64,000 bases of DNA from an uncultured Halobacteriovorax sp. (lineage in GTDB: Bacteria > Bdellovibrionota > Bacteriovoracia > Bacteriovoracales > Bacteriovoracaceae). Below, piece by piece: positions 7,448 to 27,929 of the stretch (position 1 is the stretch's first letter; every line of letters starts with the position of its first letter). The notes under the pieces are model-generated. The model saw only the letters and a list, made by a program, of their open reading frames with translations. It had not been told where the DNA came from and did not search any database. The stretch lies in contig CAJXVS010000004.1 in assembly GCA_913061265.1 (NCBI GenBank), positions 1-64,000 on the forward strand. Direction: 5' to 3'. Position numbers and translations under genes: made by a program.

Positions 7448-10400
7448 TTAATCATGATTAATTGAAATTAAGCAATTTGAAGAAGTTGAATGTTTAGACC
7501 CAGGAATATCAGTTACCAATGGATCGTTAAAATTCAAAGTTTCAGCATGTCCATGCACAGTCTTTTCCCCTTCTACATTCGTTGCTATTCGATAACCCAA
7601 ACCAGAGACCATACATAGCCATTTCTTATTATTTGAATCTACAAAAGTCGGAGCTTCTCCTAATTCGATTTGATTTCCAGATGCGGGTGTGACGAAGTGT
7701 TGGTTTATGTTAAGACCATCAATATGAGTGTCAGGAGCCACTTTATGGGAAAATGTAATTGTACTACGTGTTCCCTTTTGTTTTTGATTAGGTTGTATCT
7801 GAGTTTTGTTATTATCAATCATTTGGTTTGCAATCTTTCTTCTTTGTTTGTTGATATGATTAATATTTTTCTGGGCCTGAATACCCGTATTCGGAATTGG
7901 TTTAAGTGCAGAAACACCAGCGGCCTGAGCTGATTTAGAATTAAAGAATTTAGAAACTTGTTGTTTGTTCAAAGCCTGTGTTATTGGGTTAGGCGTACTT
8001 AAACTTCCAACAAAAATCCCGGGATGAAAAGTAAACTTATATTCAGTTCCTTGCAACAAAACTGCGCTTGTAATTGTTCCATCAGGGTTATGAGTCCCTT
8101 GAATTTCATACTTCCCATTTTTATTAATAACTGTGCCAGTACTAATCAGAGTTTTTAGTTTTTCTTGAGTCACTACTCCTGGATACTTAGTAGCAGTATT
8201 GTGACCATCTTTGTCGCTAACTGTGATTGTGTAGATTTGCGGGTTTACAGGTGTTTTTGAAGTAGGAGATTGTGAAGTTAGCGCAACAGGCTTGCTCAGA
8301 GGATGAAATCCTGCTGCTGCAACTTGGGCGTCTGTAGCTTTTGAAAAAATAAGTTTAACTAGATCTGAATTTCCAGGAATTTGAGTAAAAACAATAATCT
8401 TCCCATCTTTGTCAGTTCCAATTCCCTTTATCTGCCCATTTGCTGCAATCGCACCTAGTGACTGCAGACTTTGTAATAAACTTGCTTGCTCGCCTACAAT
8501 TCCTAAGTCCGTTACTGCACCTCCAGCACTTAAAAGTCCTGATTTTTTATCTAAGCCTGTACAACCATTAGGGCCACATACCTGGTAGCCAACTGAAAAA
8601 CCACTCATATCTGCTGGTATTGAAGTTTTAGGACCTGCTCCAGTTGATGCTTGATTATATGAGTGTAGCAATGCTGGCTGCCATGTCGTTGCTGGATCTT
8701 TATTTAGAGGTTCAAAAATAAACATTCTGCCCCCAATTTGTTGAACTAAACGACCATTTGGGTCGGCTCCCTCCAAGTTACCGTTCATTATCAAATTCTC
8801 AAGTCTTTGCCGTGTTGGCCCAGAATATTGATCAAGCCTAAATAACTTACCCTGATCTGATGACTGTATAGTTTTTTTATTAACAGCAGTGTAAGACGAA
8901 CAAGTTGAGTCCTTACATATATATTCATGAACCCAATATGGCTTAGGAGTAGGATTTCCGTGGCTCGTTAAAAACTCTGGGCTACCACCAAAATGCTGGT
9001 AACCTAATGAGCCACCATGATTAGAATTTGCTGAGGCCTTTGTAAGTTCATTAAAAGCTTTTACATGCCCAGTACTTGAATCAACTTGCCCATGTGCTTT
9101 TAGAAAATCATTAGCCGATGAGTAACTTGATGTACCATCGATCGCATAAAACTTGATTCCTGAAGCAGCAGAGCTTGCAGAAACTTGTTTCTGCTTTTTT
9201 TCGAAAGCTTTAAATGCATTTAGCTGTCTATTATAAATTTCTTGTCTATGTCTGTTTTCACCTACAGCGACCCTATGCTTAAATGCTGATTGTTCATTAT
9301 TAGTAAACAGCTCATCTCCAAGGCCCTGCCCGGCACTATTTGAGCCAAGAACACCAGTACGTAATTCACTACTAATTGTTTTAAAATTAAGCCTGAATAC
9401 TTGAAGTAAAGCTTTTTGACGAGGTGTAACGCCAGGACCACTCTGAGAATCTAAACGAATCCATTTTTCTAAGTTAGAAAATCCACCTGCCAATTGTACA
9501 ATTTTTTTTACATTATCAATCTTCTGATTTACTGAAGCTTGGTTTGGAAGTGAAGCTTTGGCCAGTAAACTTTGTATTTCGGCAAGTTTTTGATATTTTT
9601 GATCGACACTATTTTTGCTACCTGTATAAACACCAATAAAATTAGACGCGTCAAGAAGGGCCTGCTCAGTTGGTGTAGCACCGGCTTTACTTGCTTCAGT
9701 TGGTGTTACAGTTGGTACTGTAACGAGAGCTGGTGGTTTAGGTGTTGTTAGAATAAGCTGAGCTGTACCAAGACGAGTGCTACTCACATCGAGACTGTCA
9801 TGTTTTACATCGTCTTCACTAGCAGCTGAAAAGCTATATTCAAATGTAGTTTTATCACCAGAATGTAGAGAACTAACAGATACTCCTGCAAGCTTTGCTA
9901 GTGCCTCTGCAGTGAGAGTGTATTTATTAGCAGAATTAAGCTTACTTATAACTAAGTTAAAATTACTATCTAAAATTCCTAATCCTTGCATACCTGCAAG
10001 AGCTGTCGACATATCATTTTTTCTTAGAATAAATTCAACAGTTCTTTCAGCAATAGTTCCCCTAGCAACAACGAGAGTGACTTTAACTGGACCAGATTTA
10101 GTTTGACCAGGAAGTTTTGCATTAACTAGTTGTGGAACAGGATGAGAGAAAGATCCAGTTGTTGCAAGCGTCGTTAAGACATTTAATCCGTAGCGCGGAT
10201 GGTGTCCGTTTGTAGCAGAGTCCTTACTTTCGAAGCCTACAACATCAGCAACTGTTAGTTCTCTAGTTACGACATTTACTCCATTATATTCATGAACATA
10301 AATACCTATAAGAGTATCTTTGATTGCTGCATATTGAGAGGAGTCTTGATTCATTGTTAAAATGATGTCGCCATCTTCGATAAAGTACTTATTTATCCCA

Positions 10401-20372: not shown

Positions 20373-21130
20373 CCTATATACTAGAGCATTCAAACGAAGC
20401 TCAAAGGCTTGAATTACAAAAAGAAATTGAAGCTTACTCTATCCATTCTGAACTAGCGGGAGTGGACCTTAACAATAAGAAGATTTTAGATGCAGGGTGC
20501 GGTGGAGGAGATGTTTCAGAATATCTGATCTCTAATTCAACCGGTTCAAGAATTCATGGTTGTGATCAATCAGACCTAAGAGTTGCCCACGCAAAAAAGA
20601 AGAACCCAAGTGGCGACTTTTTCACTTCTTCCCTTGAGAACATAGATGCTGAAGACGATAGTTTTGATCTTATTGTTTGCCGCTATGTCTTCGAATACCT
20701 TAAGGATCCCATCTCTGTCCTTCAAGAATTCAAAAGAGTCTGCAAAAAAGGAGGAGAGATCATTGTTATTGATATAGATGGAGTCTTTCAAAACCTTTTC
20801 ACTATCAACGACAGCTTCAATCAACAACTAAGCAAGTTAGTCTCATCCATAGATGTAGATTTACAAGTAGGAAGAAAGCTTCCCGCCTTCTTTAACAAAG
20901 CGGGCTTCTCTTCGTTTAAGTCTAAGATGGAGTCTTTTTACTTTAAAGGAGATGACTTATCTCTCGAAGTTGAAAATAGCAAGATGCGCTTAAGCGCTAT
21001 AAAGGAAGATATCTCTAAAGTTCTAGGAAAAGAAGAAGGCTCTTATTTTTCAGAGAACTACCTTAGGCTTTTAGAGAATGAATCTTCAGTTATGTTTTTC
21101 AACAAGTTCATCGTTCGAGGTGTCGCGTGA
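20369..21130 (+). CDS. Class I SAM-dependent methyltransferase
   Basis: A 253-residue methyltransferase. Motif I ILDAGCGGGDVSEY is at residues 39-52, the acidic motif II region follows (HGCDQSD near 66), and DLIVCRYVFEYLKDP near 104 and FKRVCKKGGEIIVIDID near 125 complete the BioC/UbiE-like fold. Substrate unknown. I take the TTG start, since AAAAAGGGAG lies 6 bases upstream and no ATG is available; the frame is closed by a stop at 20342. Its stop overlaps the GTG of the acyl-synthase-like gene (GTGA), so both are made from one message. Confidence 0.85.
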   Translation: MTYILEHSNEAQRLELQKEIEAYSIHSELAGVDLNNKKILDAGCGGGDVSEYLISNSTGSRIHGCDQSDLRVAHAKKKNPSGDFFTSSLENIDAEDDSFDLIVCRYVFEYLKDPISVLQEFKRVCKKGGEIIVIDIDGVFQNLFTINDSFNQQLSKLVSSIDVDLQVGRKLPAFFNKAGFSSFKSKMESFYFKGDDLSLEVENSKMRLSAIKEDISKVLGKEEGSYFSENYLRLLENESSVMFFNKFIVRGVA

Positions 21131-21894
21131 TTAAGAATTTAAGAATACTCGTCTTAGACAACCCCTTTGCTAGCTGGGATTCTCCCTTTGTACGAGATAT
21201 GTTTAACAAAATCATCCTCCTTAAAAAGCTTGGTTATCAGTCACGATTTCCTTTGAACTATGCTCCCGTTGATAAGAGTGATTTTCATGGAACTCACTTG
21301 GCCTTTTGCCAAGAGAGAAATGGTGAACTCTTTCCAATAACCGCCTATAGGGTGATGGAGAGAAGTAGGTGTGAGAAATATGGAATGCCCTTTAGTGGAG
21401 AGGTTCTATGCGACACGACTGATAGTGAAGAGCATAAGAGTGCTCTTCGTGCCTTTGTGAATAAATACAAAGACCTTAATATTGCTTACTCGAGCTCTTT
21501 TACAATAGACCCAAATATCGAAAAAGAATTCAGAAGTGAGGCCATCGATTTTCTTATCCCTTTATTTGCTTACTCGCATATTCATTGGAAGATTGAAAAA
21601 TCATTGGCCCTTGGTTCTTGTCGCACCCATACAGATACGATGTACCACCGAATGGGCCTACTCCCATTGACCCATAATGGTGAGCCGTTAGGATCTATAA
21701 ATTTTCCTTGCTATGCTGGTGAAGAGTTTGAAGTTCAAGCTTGTGAAGAACTAACTCCTCATTGCTTGGAGATGGCGAAGAAGTATCTTTATTTATGGAA
21801 GGGAAGGATTCAAATAAGTGATGCGTCAGTGGGTCACGATGCCGTCGAAAATTATCTCGTAAGAGCAAGTGCTTTGACCAAGATGAGCGCATGA
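21127..21894 (+). CDS. GNAT-fold acyl-synthase-like protein (autoinducer synthase/FeeM-like)
   Basis: A 255-residue protein whose layout resembles LuxI/FeeM-type N-acyl synthases. It has an N-terminal helix with LKKLGYQSR, then DKSDFHGTHL and ITAYRVMERSRCEKYGMPF, where the Arg and Cys/Glu positions match the substrate-loop region of the fold. A C-terminal half follows with FLIPLFAYSHIHWKIEKSLALGSCRTHTDTMYHRMGLLPL. Known relatives join an acyl group to homoserine lactone or an amino acid to make signals or lipids. The assignment is by pattern, not by a confirmed family hit. It starts with GTG coupled to the methyltransferase. Its last 69 bases overlap the convergent regulator gene. Confidence 0.6.
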   Translation: MIKNLRILVLDNPFASWDSPFVRDMFNKIILLKKLGYQSRFPLNYAPVDKSDFHGTHLAFCQERNGELFPITAYRVMERSRCEKYGMPFSGEVLCDTTDSEEHKSALRAFVNKYKDLNIAYSSSFTIDPNIEKEFRSEAIDFLIPLFAYSHIHWKIEKSLALGSCRTHTDTMYHRMGLLPLTHNGEPLGSINFPCYAGEEFEVQACEELTPHCLEMAKKYLYLWKGRIQISDASVGHDAVENYLVRASALTKMSA

Positions 21895-22671
21895 GATCTT
21901 TCTAACTTTTGCCGGATAAGTATAGCGGTATTTAACAAGCTCTTCGAAGAAGCCTTGGATGTTTTGACAAAAACTAAGGTTTCCGAAGTGCTTTACAGAG
22001 AAATAGTCTTTTACAGATTCTTTTGTTTCATACTTAAAGACAATCCTGTTTGGTGTCGCGCTAAGAATGGTATAGTTCATATTCTTTTCGACAACGGTCG
22101 TGCAATATTCAAGAAAGTAAGAATACGCGTCGGCCGGAGATTTAAATTGGTTTAATTCTTCTTTAAAATTACTTTTAAGAAAGCTCTTACAATTTACATG
22201 CCCGACAACATCAGCTTCTTTAGAATAGCTAAATTTTGTAAGGTCTTTGAATATCGATTTAATAAGCTCTGCAGAAACCAACTTTGATTCATGGGCCAGT
22301 ACGTCCTCTTTAAGTTGATATTTTCGTAAGATCAATTTACGGCTTTTCTCATCAACAAGACTTAAGGCAGAAGAGACTGTTTTCAGTCTTGTTCCCTGAT
22401 TTCCAATCAACTCTTCTTTTACAGTTGAAGGGTTACCTTCTAGCTGAATCTTTAAAGTACTTGGGCAAATATTATTTTTTTGAAGTTCACTTAAATCTAT
22501 ATTTAACTTCTCTGAAAGCCTCATACCTTCTTCGATCGTTAACGAAGATAATTTTTTTAGGCCTTTAATCCTACACAATTCGTAGATATCTTTCTTTAAA
22601 AGCCCTACGTTCTGAAGAAGCATATCAAAGTTATTATTCAATAAATTAAGGTCTAATTTTAATGAGTCCAT
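21826..22671 (-). CDS. HTH protein with V4R-like sensor domain
   Basis: A 281-residue protein. Residues about 25-70 form an HTH-like helical unit (KKDIYELCRIKGLKK, IEEGMRLSEKLNIDLSEL). The C-terminal 120 residues resemble the 4-vinyl-reductase/heme-NO small-molecule-binding fold, ending in VRKISCAHLGQSTCSYEIIF, the Cys-x7-Cys pattern (CAHLGQSTC) typical of V4R domains. Such domains bind small hydrophobic ligands. It starts directly after the stop of the XRE regulator gene with no spacing and overlaps the acyl-synthase-like gene tail to tail by 69 bases. A role as sensor of a local product is inference. Confidence 0.65.
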   Translation of the reverse strand: MDSLKLDLNLLNNNFDMLLQNVGLLKKDIYELCRIKGLKKLSSLTIEEGMRLSEKLNIDLSELQKNNICPSTLKIQLEGNPSTVKEELIGNQGTRLKTVSSALSLVDEKSRKLILRKYQLKEDVLAHESKLVSAELIKSIFKDLTKFSYSKEADVVGHVNCKSFLKSNFKEELNQFKSPADAYSYFLEYCTTVVEKNMNYTILSATPNRIVFKYETKESVKDYFSVKHFGNLSFCQNIQGFFEELVKYRYTYPAKVRKISCAHLGQSTCSYEIIFDGIVTH

Positions 22672-23523
22672 CTATGCCGATTGAATAAGCTTAAAGGAGA
22701 CCTCTTCTTTGAAGTTCTTTTTCTTATTAGTAGGAGTCTTCGCGATCAATCCCTCGAAACCAAAGGTTTGCGGAAGGGCCGAGAAGAAGGCTTGCTTATA
22801 ATCGACAATAAATGAGCCCATTCCAGAGTTTGAAAAATCAATATCCCTTGCAAAGTCCTTAACGTTTAGGCCAATTGTCACCGCGCGATCAGAAAAATCA
22901 ATAACATTGTGCTCGAAAGCTCCTTCATACTGTGAAGAGTTATAGCTGTAGGCCTTAATGATTTCGATAGGACTAGATTGGGTTTCATAAACATTATAGA
23001 ACATACCGTGATATTCACTTGATTGAGTTGTCGCAATCAACTCTGGAATATCGTCTTTGTTAATAATCTTAGCTTCTAGTGCTCCTTGAAGGAGGTCAAA
23101 GTAACAATGATAACTTATCTTCTCGCTAGGCCCCATATAAATGAGATCGTCTAGGCCAAATGTGTTTAAAAAAGACATCAACCCTTCTGGTTTCTTCTTT
23201 CTGATTATCAAACGCATTAAGGGAACAAGCTCTCTTACCAAAGAGTTGTTATTATCTAGGTATTTAGGATTGATCTTCAAAGGAACATCAAACTTCTTAG
23301 CAATCTGCCAGTAGTTAACATGACCACTTAGAAGGTCTTCATAATTAATTTCAAAGAATTTTGAGAGAACAAAGACTGACTCAACGCTTAAACTCTGAGT
23401 CCCCTTCTCAAGACGAGAAATAGTTGCCTGATCTCTTTGAAGGATCTTTGCCATTTCGATTTGAGAAAGGCCTGCTGTCTTTCTTAATTTTTTAAAAATA
23501 AAGCCTAAGTCTTTTACTTCCAT
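22672..23523 (-). CDS. XRE-family transcriptional regulator with C-terminal sensor region
   Basis: A 283-residue regulator. The N-terminal XRE helix-turn-helix spans residues 8-65 (LRKTAGLSQIEMAKILQRDQ, ATISRLEKGTQSLSVESVFVL). The 210-residue C-terminal part is mixed alpha/beta and roughly the same size as the ligand domain of the next gene product; I cannot name its family. It lies between the hydrolase (one base apart) and the V4R-like gene (no spacing), so the three form one tight minus-strand operon facing the methyltransferase/acyl-synthase pair. Confidence 0.85.
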   Translation of the reverse strand: MEVKDLGFIFKKLRKTAGLSQIEMAKILQRDQATISRLEKGTQSLSVESVFVLSKFFEINYEDLLSGHVNYWQIAKKFDVPLKINPKYLDNNNSLVRELVPLMRLIIRKKKPEGLMSFLNTFGLDDLIYMGPSEKISYHCYFDLLQGALEAKIINKDDIPELIATTQSSEYHGMFYNVYETQSSPIEIIKAYSYNSSQYEGAFEHNVIDFSDRAVTIGLNVKDFARDIDFSNSGMGSFIVDYKQAFFSALPQTFGFEGLIAKTPTNKKKNFKEEVSFKLIQSA

Positions 23524-23524
23524 C

Positions 23525-24364
23525 TTAATAATTTCTCTGTTTATTTATATTGATACTATTTTTTCTATTAGTAATGAAGCCAAGACAATAGATATTGAAG
23601 TCATCAAAGTTATCTATATGCGTGTAATGCCCCGCAGACTCGATAGGGTGAATCCTATGCTCAAAGCAGTTTTCAAAAAGGTATTCTTTATTAATTAATT
23701 TTTCCTCTAATCCGTAGAGAAAAAGAGAACGGCCTTCGAATTTCTCTAACTCATTAAACTCATCTTTAAAGTCATGCTTTATGAACTCTGAGCAAAATCC
23801 TTCTCTATATTTTTTATCAGTTCCATTAAAGCTATTTGAAAAATCTAGAAAGCCTTGACCTGAACGGTTCTCATAACAAGCTTCGTAAAGTTCCTGAAGC
23901 TCCTGATCAGTAACCTCATTCTTAAAGAAGTAAGCGGCACATGGAATCGGTGCAAACACTTTTTCCATCACTGGTGGGTTTGTTAAAGGAGGTGCTCCCC
24001 AAGTAATCAGATAGGTAGGCTTAATAATATTTAGGGCCTGGAAACAAATATGTCCCCCAAGAGAGTGACCAAAGAGAGTACTGATTTCAAGGCCGAGTTC
24101 ATTGACAAAGGTCTCTAAGAATTCACTTAATTTTTCGAGTGAATAGTCTGCTTCTTTAAATCCTTCAGTTTCTCCATGACCAGGAAGATCAACGGCAATT
24201 ACATGATAAGAGTTTTTGAAGCTTTGAATTTGCCTTGAGAATGTCTCTTTTGATGAAGAATTTCCATGAACAAAAAGCATTGTTGGCGAACTAGTATCAC
24301 CCGCTTCAAAATAAGAAGTTCTTAAACTTTGATTTGAAAGTTTCAAGCTTATGTAATTTTGCAT
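23525..24364 (-). CDS. Alpha/beta-fold hydrolase
   Basis: A 279-residue cytoplasmic hydrolase. The oxyanion HG lies at residues 33-34 (LFVHGNSS), DLPGHGETEG follows near 59, the nucleophile elbow GHSLGG at 99-104 (Ser101), and the catalytic His is in SAGHYTHID near residue 246. The acid is probably the Asp/Glu near LYGLEEKLI. Esterases, thioesterases and lactonases share this fold. As first gene of the operon with two sensors, facing an acyl-synthase-like gene, it could make or break an acylated signal, but that is inference. Confidence 0.88.
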   Translation of the reverse strand: MQNYISLKLSNQSLRTSYFEAGDTSSPTMLFVHGNSSSKETFSRQIQSFKNSYHVIAVDLPGHGETEGFKEADYSLEKLSEFLETFVNELGLEISTLFGHSLGGHICFQALNIIKPTYLITWGAPPLTNPPVMEKVFAPIPCAAYFFKNEVTDQELQELYEACYENRSGQGFLDFSNSFNGTDKKYREGFCSEFIKHDFKDEFNELEKFEGRSLFLYGLEEKLINKEYLFENCFEHRIHPIESAGHYTHIDNFDDFNIYCLGFITNRKNSININKQRNY

Positions 24365-24682
24365 AGCTCCCCCAGTAGAACCATAGCACCTGATAAAGGC
24401 GGGTCAAAGACTCGGCGCACAAAAGTTTTCCTAAGAATAAAAACGCAATGTTACTTTGTAGGCGTCGCTAAAAGATTAAAAATAAAGTCCTCTTTTTGTC
24501 TTCACGGCTGGTGGCCTGCGAAGCATTTCATTAGAGTTTTAATGTAAGTTGATCGATCTGGATCTGGTCTAGTATTAAAGAGATAGCCTCTTTGTGGTTA
24601 TAAGAATCTCTTATAACACCGATAGCCATTAGCTTAGTTACAGAAAACCCCTTTGAAGTTAATTTAACTCAAAGGAGAATAT
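24365..24682. promoter_or_regulatory. Divergent control region with three inverted repeats
   Basis: This 318-base gap separates the hydrolase operon from the Cys-rich protein/diiron pair and should hold both promoters. I see AAAGAG/CTCTTT (24577-24593), the perfect 9-3-9 repeat GTTATAAGA/TCTTATAAC (24597-24617), and CTTTG-AGTTAA/TTAACT-CAAAG with one bulge (24651-24674). The last one abuts the ribosome binding site AAAGGAGA of the 24683 gene and could mask part of it. The middle one is a good operator candidate. No T-runs follow. Confidence 0.5.
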
Positions 24683-24922
24683 ATGAATATAGATAAGCTT
24701 TTTAAGGTCCTTGTTGTTGGGGGAGCCCTAATGACTTCCGCTGAGACCATGGCCTTTGGTCACCAATCCCTAGATGTTCAAGCAGAATCAAAAGAAGAAC
24801 CTAGCCCTGCTTTTTGTAACCCAGAAGATGAAAATCAATGTGTTGAAAATGACCAAGGTGAGATTGTCGTTAAAGAAGGACTGTATTGTTGTTGGGGGAC
24901 GTCTTGCTCGATAGAGGAATAG
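24683..24922 (+). CDS. Small exported Cys-rich protein with C-terminal CCWGTSC
   Basis: A 79-residue protein with a hydrophobic N-terminal signal region (residues 5-24, ending TMA) and a short acidic mature part with five cysteines (45, 53, 69, 70, 75), the last three in LYCCWGTSCSIEE. An AAAGGAGA ribosome binding site lies 5 bases before the ATG. The last 37 bases overlap the ferritin-like gene, and the codons for VKEG double as that gene's ribosome binding site. The arrangement suggests a substrate or partner of the diiron protein: a modified peptide, metal carrier or redox protein. I do not recognise the family; function is open. Confidence 0.75.
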   Translation: MNIDKLFKVLVVGGALMTSAETMAFGHQSLDVQAESKEEPSPAFCNPEDENQCVENDQGEIVVKEGLYCCWGTSCSIEE

Positions 24923-25590
24923 AAAACAACCTTTCACATGCCCCAGCTGAGGTCTTTGAAGTTTGGCGAAACCGTGAATCAATAGAAATTGAAGCGGCCA
25001 TCATCTTTAAGCAGCTCGGGCGTGACCTTCAAACTCTTTATGGAAAGGATGACCTTACCGCCCTTCTTTCTTTAAAATCTAGCGATGACGAACTTAGGCA
25101 TGCACGAAGGTGCCAAGAAATCCTCTCCTTTAATGACAAAAAAGATTACCCCGCTTTTACACCAGACTTTAAGATTCAATTTGGACCTCAGTACTTAACT
25201 GATAAACAAAGAGTTCTTTATATGTCTCTTGGTGTTTGCTGTATCACTGAAACTCTAAGTACCGCCCTTTTAATTGAAATGCACGAGCGCGCCTTTTCTG
25301 GGATTATAAGAGATACCATTCATGAGATCTTAGTTGATGAGGTTGATCATGCTCGAATTGGTTGGGCGGAACTTAACAGGCAAGCCCAAAACGAAAACAT
25401 CTCTTGGTTAAAGGAATATCTTCCTACCTTAGTCAAAGAAGCCTTTTCTTCAGATATCGCTCCTATGTTAAAGCCCAATCAAGATCTTTCCATATGGGGA
25501 ATCCTCTCTCCTAAAGATGCCAGACCTATTATGGAGGAGACCCTTGAAAAAGTGATCTATCCAGGATTAGAAAAATACGGAATCTTATAA
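24886..25590 (+). CDS. Ferritin-like diiron protein
   Basis: A protein of about 234 residues, mostly helical, with the ligand set of a ferritin-like four-helix diiron centre: Glu in helix 1 (SIEIEAAIIF), E-x-x-H in DDELRHAR, Glu in helix 3 (CCITETLSTAL) and E-x-x-H in VDEVDHARIGW. Members include oxygenases, rubrerythrin-like peroxidases and hydroxylases. There is no ATG near the N-terminus. The first in-frame starts are three TTG codons at 24886-24894, 5 bases after AGAAGGA (24874-24880), inside the upstream Cys-rich gene. That argues for strict co-translation of the two. The 3' end overlaps the convergent TSUP gene by 6 bases. Confidence 0.78.
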   Translation: MLLGDVLLDRGIENNLSHAPAEVFEVWRNRESIEIEAAIIFKQLGRDLQTLYGKDDLTALLSLKSSDDELRHARRCQEILSFNDKKDYPAFTPDFKIQFGPQYLTDKQRVLYMSLGVCCITETLSTALLIEMHERAFSGIIRDTIHEILVDEVDHARIGWAELNRQAQNENISWLKEYLPTLVKEAFSSDIAPMLKPNQDLSIWGILSPKDARPIMEETLEKVIYPGLEKYGIL

Positions 25591-26399: not shown

Positions 26400-27929
26400 T
26401 TACTCGTCGCTTACAACTTTATAGTGAGGATCTTCCATAATATTGACTTCAACCATATTACCAGCAGTGTCCAACAACTTACGGCAATCTTCGCTTAAGT
26501 GTTTTAATCTAATCCTCTTATTCATTGCTGAATACCGCGCCGTTAGTTTTTGCACGGCTTCGATTCCACTATGGTCGATAATTCTTGATTCTTTAAAATC
26601 AACGATGATCTCTGTCGGATCTTCATGAGGCTCAAATTTTTCTTGAAAGAGTTGAGTTGAGGCAAAAAAGAGTGGTCCCCAAATTTCGTAATGCTTAATT
26701 CCTTCATCATCAGTGTATTTTCTCACTCTAATTCTAACAGCACTCTCCCAAGCAAAGACAAGAGCTGAAGCAATCACTCCAATAAGGACAGCAATAGCGA
26801 GGTCAAAGACGACGGTTAGGACAGTAACAAGAACAAGGACTAAGGCATCAGCTTTTGGAATCTTATGCAGGATTTTAAAACTGGTCCACTCAAAAGTTCC
26901 AACGCATACCATAAACATAACACCAACTAGGGCGGCTACTGGAATTTGCTCGATAAGACTTGAACCAAAAAGAATAAAGAAAAGAAGAAATAGTGAAGCT
27001 GCAATTCCAGACACTCTTGTTCTAGCACCAGAACTTACATTGATAATACTTTGTCCGATCATGGCACAACCGCCCATCCCACCAAAAAATCCAGTGACAA
27101 TATTTGCGGTTCCCTGCGCGACACATTCTTTATTACTTTGTCCCTTTGTCTCAGTGATCTCATCTAATAAAGTTAGAGTTAAAAGAGATTCAATTAACCC
27201 AATACCTGCAAGAATTAACGAATAAGGAAAGATGATCTTTAAAGTCTCAAGATTAAAGGGTACATCAGGAACTCCAAAAGGAGGAAGGCCGCCCTTAATA
27301 GAGGCCAAGTCACCAACTGACTTTGTTGGCAGTCCCATTGAAATGGCGATAACCGAAACCACAATGATTCCTACAAGAGAAGAAGGAACTGATTTAGTTA
27401 ATTTAGGAAAGTATTGAATGATGAACATAGTTAGCGCGATAAGAGCGATCATAATGTAGAGGAATTGACCGCTAATCCACTCTAATCCTTCGCCGCTTAC
27501 TGCAGGAACTTTAAACTGACCAAACTGAGCTAAGAAAATAACAATAGCGAGCCCATTAACAAATCCATAAATAACAGGTTCTGGAACTAAGCGGATAAAC
27601 TTACCAAGCTTTAACCAACCCATTAGGACTTGAATGATCCCCATTAAGATGACTGTCGCAAAGAGGTATTGCACTCCGTGATTAGAAACGAGGGAAACCA
27701 TTACGACGGCCAAGGCTCCAGTGGCGCCAGAGATCATGCCAGGTCTTCCGCCCATCAAGGAAGTGATCAAGCAAACGATAAAGGCTGCATATAAACCAAC
27801 AAGAGGCTGCACACCAGCGACAAAAGAGAAAGCAACAGCTTCAGGCACAAGGGCCAAAGCTACTGTGAGTCCTGAGAGGATCTCCACTTTATAGTCTATT
27901 TTCTTCAACGCGGTTTTTGAAATGTCCAT
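26400..27929 (-). CDS. SulP-family anion transporter with STAS domain
   Basis: A 509-residue SLC26/SulP transporter. The membrane region of 10-14 helices spans residues 15-400 and opens with the family stretch VALALVPEAVAFSFVAGVQPLVGLYAAF; GGMGGCAMIGQSIINVSSGA lies near residue 290. A C-terminal STAS domain follows (about 415-505, VDFKESRIIDHSGIEAVQKL). Bacterial members carry sulfate, bicarbonate or dicarboxylates. Pairing with a TSUP exporter gene just downstream hints at sulfate/sulfite traffic, but bicarbonate uptake (BicA-like) is equally possible. Confidence 0.92.
   Translation of the reverse strand: MDISKTALKKIDYKVEILSGLTVALALVPEAVAFSFVAGVQPLVGLYAAFIVCLITSLMGGRPGMISGATGALAVVMVSLVSNHGVQYLFATVILMGIIQVLMGWLKLGKFIRLVPEPVIYGFVNGLAIVIFLAQFGQFKVPAVSGEGLEWISGQFLYIMIALIALTMFIIQYFPKLTKSVPSSLVGIIVVSVIAISMGLPTKSVGDLASIKGGLPPFGVPDVPFNLETLKIIFPYSLILAGIGLIESLLTLTLLDEITETKGQSNKECVAQGTANIVTGFFGGMGGCAMIGQSIINVSSGARTRVSGIAASLFLLFFILFGSSLIEQIPVAALVGVMFMVCVGTFEWTSFKILHKIPKADALVLVLVTVLTVVFDLAIAVLIGVIASALVFAWESAVRIRVRKYTDDEGIKHYEIWGPLFFASTQLFQEKFEPHEDPTEIIVDFKESRIIDHSGIEAVQKLTARYSAMNKRIRLKHLSEDCRKLLDTAGNMVEVNIMEDPHYKVVSDE

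Follow-up and report, generated by a model that had tools for sequence, protein, structure and literature searches.

In the window, by which we mean the whole 64,000-nucleotide stretch that was analysed, a gene for a small Cys-rich protein with a predicted signal peptide overlaps a gene for a ferritin-like diiron protein. That this pairing is real and conserved is well supported. We propose, with a probability of roughly 0.55, that the second gene encodes a cytosolic diiron oxygenase, which would modify the Cys/Trp tail of a Sec-exported precursor encoded by the first.

A tightly coupled gene pair in the window

The small gene begins with ATG, has a strong Shine-Dalgarno sequence (CAAAGGAGA) ahead of it, and encodes a protein of sequence MNIDKLFKVLVVGGALMTSAETMAFGHQ...EGLYCCWGTSCSIEE. 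The pair and its elements are as follows.

24597..24617, no strand: perfect 9-bp inverted repeat, GTTATAAGA-ATC-TCTTATAAC, between a divergent hydrolase gene and the pair
24683..24922, + strand: gene for the small exported Cys-rich protein, putative precursor/substrate (ORF, 79 aa plus stop)
24683..24754, + strand: predicted N-terminal Sec signal peptide, MNIDKLFKVLVVGGALMTSAETMA (from sequence; cleavage perhaps after TMA)
24874..24880, + strand: AGAAGGA, Shine-Dalgarno-like, which would serve a start at 24886/24889 (-5.4 kcal/mol)
24887..24907, + strand: codons for residues 69-75, which form the conserved tail CCWGTSC (from sequence and homologues)
24904..25590, + strand: ferritin-like diiron enzyme gene from the preferred start, TTG 24904 (228 aa)
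24886..25590, + strand: the same enzyme gene as the longest ORF, from TTG 24886 (234 aa)

As the first-pass annotation described, the small gene encodes a 79-residue protein with a signal-like N-terminus that ends LYCCWGTSCSIEE, AGAAGGA lies inside this gene, and the longest version of the diiron-type ORF, which is in a different reading frame and stops at 25590, overlaps it by 37 nt. TTG 24886 is probably not the true start, however. The Shine-Dalgarno match of TTG 24904 is stronger (GTTGGGGGA, -8.4 compared with -5.4 kcal/mol), and this start leaves 14 residues ahead of the conserved VFxxW block as opposed to 20, where the relatives in genomes G035 and G168 have 13 and 12. Because of the better Shine-Dalgarno match and an N-terminal length close to that of relatives, we prefer TTG 24904, which would probably reduce the overlap to 19 nt. 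The TTGGGGG in the Trp-Gly codons of the window's small gene then doubles as the apparent ribosome-binding site of the enzyme gene, and TGGGG of the Trp-Gly codons is found at the position expected for this site in G000 (the genome that holds the window), G035, G168 and G274.

Conservation of the TTG start had been put forward as a check, and it failed, with relatives appearing to use GTG or ATG. Across seven genomes the small gene and the enzyme gene overlap by 1-37 nt or are separated by a 2-nt gap, depending on the locus and the chosen start, and the relative frame of the two genes is +1 in G168, G240 and G274 and +2 in the others. Since the frame relation varies among homologues, tight coupling, and not a particular TTG, is the conserved feature. 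The same variation bears on the idea that programmed -1 frameshifting fuses both frames into one protein. In G000 and G035 an AGAAGG element does lie ahead of the overlap, an arrangement known from some frameshift sites of bacteria, but the relative frame is not constant, a slippery heptamer was not seen and fusion would export the enzyme, all of which makes frameshifting very improbable.

The pair is flanked by a divergent gene upstream and a convergent gene downstream and is therefore a stand-alone two-gene unit. The inverted repeat at 24597-24617 is a possible operator, and TTATAAC may be a -10 element; TTATAAC also occurs upstream of the pair in G220 and G241, and a search of the pair loci by eye gave no regulatory site common to all. 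On the minus strand, 21826-24364 holds three tightly packed genes. Their products are an alpha/beta hydrolase, an HTH_3 regulator and a protein whose C-terminus weakly matches V4R, and the gene for this third protein overlaps a convergent gene (21127-21894) by 69 nt.

The two genes co-occur in seven genomes of the phylum

We searched 369 genomes of the phylum, partly draft, using enzyme profiles A1 then A3 and small-protein profiles A2 and A5. Strong enzyme matches were found in seven of them, a scattered set of Bdellovibrio relatives (G000, G035, G168, G240, G274, G220 and G241), and the same seven carry the small gene, always directly upstream of the enzyme gene and on the same strand. Profile A2 alone recovered six of the seven small proteins, while the G220 protein was found by reading the locus and matches that of G241 at E 1e-8. 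CCWGTSC tails are present in five genomes and CxxxFCxCWLG tails in two, each adjoining a ferritin-like gene, and no lone enzyme or lone small protein was found among the 369 genomes, so that within the phylum neither gene is commonly found alone. The partnership that the first-pass annotation had read from the tight nesting is thus upheld by strict co-occurrence and adjacency in seven genomes, in both tail types. Gene overlaps are common in bacteria, and an ordinary small ORF could overlap an unrelated enzyme gene by chance. This is contradicted by recurrence, as adjacency and both protein families are kept in seven genomes spanning four families of the phylum, leaving chance with next to no probability.

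Two other genomes of the window's genus are without the pair, and G240 and G241, which belong to one genus, differ in tail type. This patchy spread, together with differing types within a genus, suggests that the pair is a rare, accessory element subject to horizontal transfer or frequent loss. Enzyme identity is 37-56% among the CCWGTSC type, 43% between the CWLG type and 25-30% across types, and tail type and enzyme clade change together across the seven genomes. The G241 enzyme gene (L049 8026-8759) has a frame break near 8200, which may be an assembly error or decay; both pieces match the family profile.

Several weaker matches were set aside. Those to the enzyme profile in G076 and G078 are stand-alone ferritin-like proteins beside a TetR-like gene (G078 L061 3829-5226 and G076 L062 1816-3217), at loci without a small Cys-rich partner, and what matched in G129 is a 63-aa Cys protein, unrelated and with no ferritin-like gene beside it. 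Small-protein matches at E 0.03-1 were treated as chance. A scan of database contigs with the single window enzyme gave no match, and one with a two-row enzyme profile, a scan that beyond the phylum was sensitive to near relatives only, gave the G035 record as its sole match. Searches of viral contigs, plasmids and phages returned no relatives, and PHROGs and PADLOC nothing convincing.

Beyond the pair, the only gene that recurs across the seven neighbourhoods, three of which are short contigs, is a SulP gene in two loci. As no other gene is common to all seven, we take the pair to be the unit. The SulP-type transporters (window 26400-27929 and G241 L049 5608-7137) are 79% identical and lie within about 1 kb of the pair; G241 belongs to another family of the phylum. 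SulP was rejected as a member of the system since it is missing from the other loci, some of them short contigs. Next to the pair we found no gene for a partner protein, a dedicated peptidase or an exporter, and no recognition domain.

The second gene encodes a predicted ferritin-like diiron enzyme

The enzyme was modelled with AlphaFold2 on a seven-row alignment, with residues counted from the 24886 start. The model is a helical bundle (pLDDT 88.6, pTM 0.86) with low confidence at residues 1-12, which lie partly ahead of the preferred start. Using VIA-align, the model matched ferritin-like diiron enzymes with Z of about 15-18 over about 190-210 residues, namely PaaC/PaaA-type proteins, aldehyde deformylating oxygenase, the methane monooxygenase hydroxylase (MMOH) and R2lox; helical bundles easily give middling Z, and these values exceed the level of about 13 up to which the tool advises caution. 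Foldseek ranked the same groups with E-values >0.01. A profile search of solved structures (PDB) gave no clear match to the enzyme, the best in one search being designed helical bundles. In Pfam, Rubrerythrin (PF02915) was above threshold for the G168 enzyme only, DUF455 (PF04305), COQ7, Ferritin_2 (PF13668) and AurF were weak and sub-threshold for the family, and the window copy was below threshold for all families. The window genome encodes a separate, true DUF455 protein elsewhere.

The ligand pattern of the family, E...ExxH...E...ExxH, consists of E34, E69xxH72, E122 and E152xxH155. E34, E69 and H72 are retained in 6/6 readable copies, and E122, E152 and H155 in 7/7. Two Cys residues are also invariant: C76, which follows H72 by four residues, and C119, which precedes E122 by three; one helical turn from the ligands, they may line the active site. 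Between G000 and G035 the enzyme gene gives a pN/pS of 0.40, with synonymous sites near saturation, a value indicating purifying selection. Together, the fold and ligand residues bear out the diiron identity first assigned to this gene and support well a ferritin-like diiron protein of the O2-activating kind, with catalysis predicted.

The small protein pairs a signal-like N-terminus with a conserved Cys-Trp tail

By inspection and script, all seven small homologues show AxA-like sites and a hydrophobic stretch resembling KLFxVLVxGG; signal peptidase I could plausibly cut near residues 22-28, and the N-terminal stretch of both types takes the form K-[LM]-F-x-x-L-[VI]-x-G. The low-confidence model of the small protein (pTM 0.35) has a helix at 3-20. 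A hydrophobic N-terminal helix could also mean that the protein, with this helix uncleaved, is anchored in the membrane as an accessory or regulatory subunit of the enzyme, which would then act on a small molecule; small partner subunits are frequent among diiron monooxygenases. Such an anchor, with its N-in topology, would however place the Cys-rich part in the periplasm, apart from the enzyme, and the subunit explanation must also contend with the plausible cleavage sites in 7/7 homologues and with a conserved core that is the Cys-Trp tail. We consider it quite unlikely.

The mature part is acidic and Cys-rich. The window protein has five Cys (45, 53, 69, 70 and 75) and a single Trp (71), and the homologues have five Cys, an odd number, in 5/7 and six in 2/7. 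The best-conserved part is the C-terminal Cys-Trp motif, which is found in two types. In type A (5/7 genomes) CCWGTSC is followed by 1-10 residues to the C-terminus, and in type B (2/7) CxxxFCxCWLG is the exact C-terminus; common to both is a Cys immediately before the single Trp, with a Gly one or two residues after. In G240 the tail motif is identical although 10 codons separate it from the stop, a distance at which it cannot provide the ribosome-binding site of the next gene, which argues that the tail is kept by protein-level selection. The small gene as a whole, with a pN/pS of 0.37 between G000 and G035 and synonymous sites near saturation, appears to be under purifying selection. In the model, residues 41-70 form short strands of moderate local confidence, and the small protein could therefore be an ordinary disulfide-stabilised domain. 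A profile search of solved structures gave no meaningful match to it.

A proposed role in maturation of an exported peptide

The small gene always stands directly ahead of the same enzyme gene in the seven genomes, suggesting that the enzyme finishes the small protein. The covariation of tail type and enzyme clade is as expected of an enzyme and its substrate, though shared descent alone would suffice. What follows is what we infer: that the signal peptide is used, that the peptide is the substrate, what chemistry takes place and what the product does. The small gene's product would be a precursor in which a Sec signal peptide is followed by an acidic, Cys-rich mature part with the Cys-Trp motif at its end, and the second, translationally coupled gene would give a cytosolic ferritin-like enzyme that activates oxygen and binds a pair of metal ions, both iron or Fe/Mn. 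We hypothesize that this enzyme oxidises the tail at Cys, Trp or both, either ahead of export or while it proceeds; conceivable outcomes include a Cys-derived heterocycle, a Cys-Trp thioether or a hydroxylated Trp. Once finished, the peptide would leave the cytoplasm to do its work, most probably that of a metal chelator or of a redox-active peptide.

We also considered that the small protein works in the periplasm as a metal- or redox-binding protein, the enzyme being co-regulated with it, in stress or metal homeostasis, but leaving it unmodified, or else delivering metal to it. An acidic, Cys-rich mature part with moderate-confidence strands would suit such a protein, and the ferritin-like fold is common among metal-handling proteins. 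The enzyme, with its complete ligand set, resembles O2-activating enzymes and not ferritin cages, however, and a cytosolic enzyme is unlikely to load metal onto a Sec-exported, unfolded protein; that enzyme clade and tail type change together also speaks against this explanation, which we rate as somewhat unlikely. Tail modification is the most economical reading as we see it; the pair may instead serve in metal loading or another shared role. As a counterpoint, the fold matches fall within a large superfamily in which most characterised enzymes have small-molecule substrates.

Comparison with known systems

The closest parallel in layout is that of the copper-binding bufferins, whose precursors have a Sec signal peptide, are encoded by a gene that precedes the gene for an iron enzyme (MNIO), and are modified on Cys (PMC12452194). 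In the pair, a putative small Cys-containing precursor with a Sec-signal-like N-terminus is encoded just before an iron-enzyme gene, and by analogy the diiron enzyme would oxidise the tail before export. The differences are that the pair's enzyme is a ferritin-like helical bundle with no match to the MNIO family (DUF692, PF05114), that no DUF2063-type partner gene recurs beside it (three of the loci are short contigs), and that the precursor tail is CCWGTSC or CxxxFCxCWLG. We do not assign the pair to the MNIO/bufferin family because its enzyme has another fold and the loci lack the partner gene. Of the seven genomes, five also carry true MNIO genes (PF05114), located on other contigs or at a great distance from the pair, so the diiron pair is an additional system there. 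In the window genome, the PF05114 matches lie outside the window (L071 G000:C10:52844-53629 and L075 G000:C4:289610-289981).

With PaaA/PaaC, SSO1313 (4mud), cyanobacterial aldehyde deformylating oxygenase, MMOH and R2lox, the enzyme shares the helical bundle and the E...ExxH...E...ExxH pattern, but its identity to them is about 9-18%, and it differs in its invariant Cys (C76 and C119) near the ligands and in the linked precursor-like gene. Its likeness to the Rubrerythrin, DUF455 and Ferritin_2 profiles is weak and, except for Rubrerythrin in G168, below threshold. A limited literature search found no diiron or ferritin-like enzyme acting on ribosomal peptides, the matches being MNIO, methanobactin and unrelated systems, and the limited database and literature searches agree with the earlier remark that no system with this pair has been described. 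We tentatively suggest that ferritin-like diiron oxygenases could be peptide maturases that place an oxidative Cys/Trp modification on Sec-exported precursors, defining a new ribosomal-peptide class and an independent evolutionary counterpart of MNIO/bufferin. If this is true, the iron enzymes that mature exported peptides would include ferritin-like diiron enzymes as well as MNIOs, which would give access to new peptide chemistry and perhaps reveal a new form of bacterial metal handling at the cell surface.
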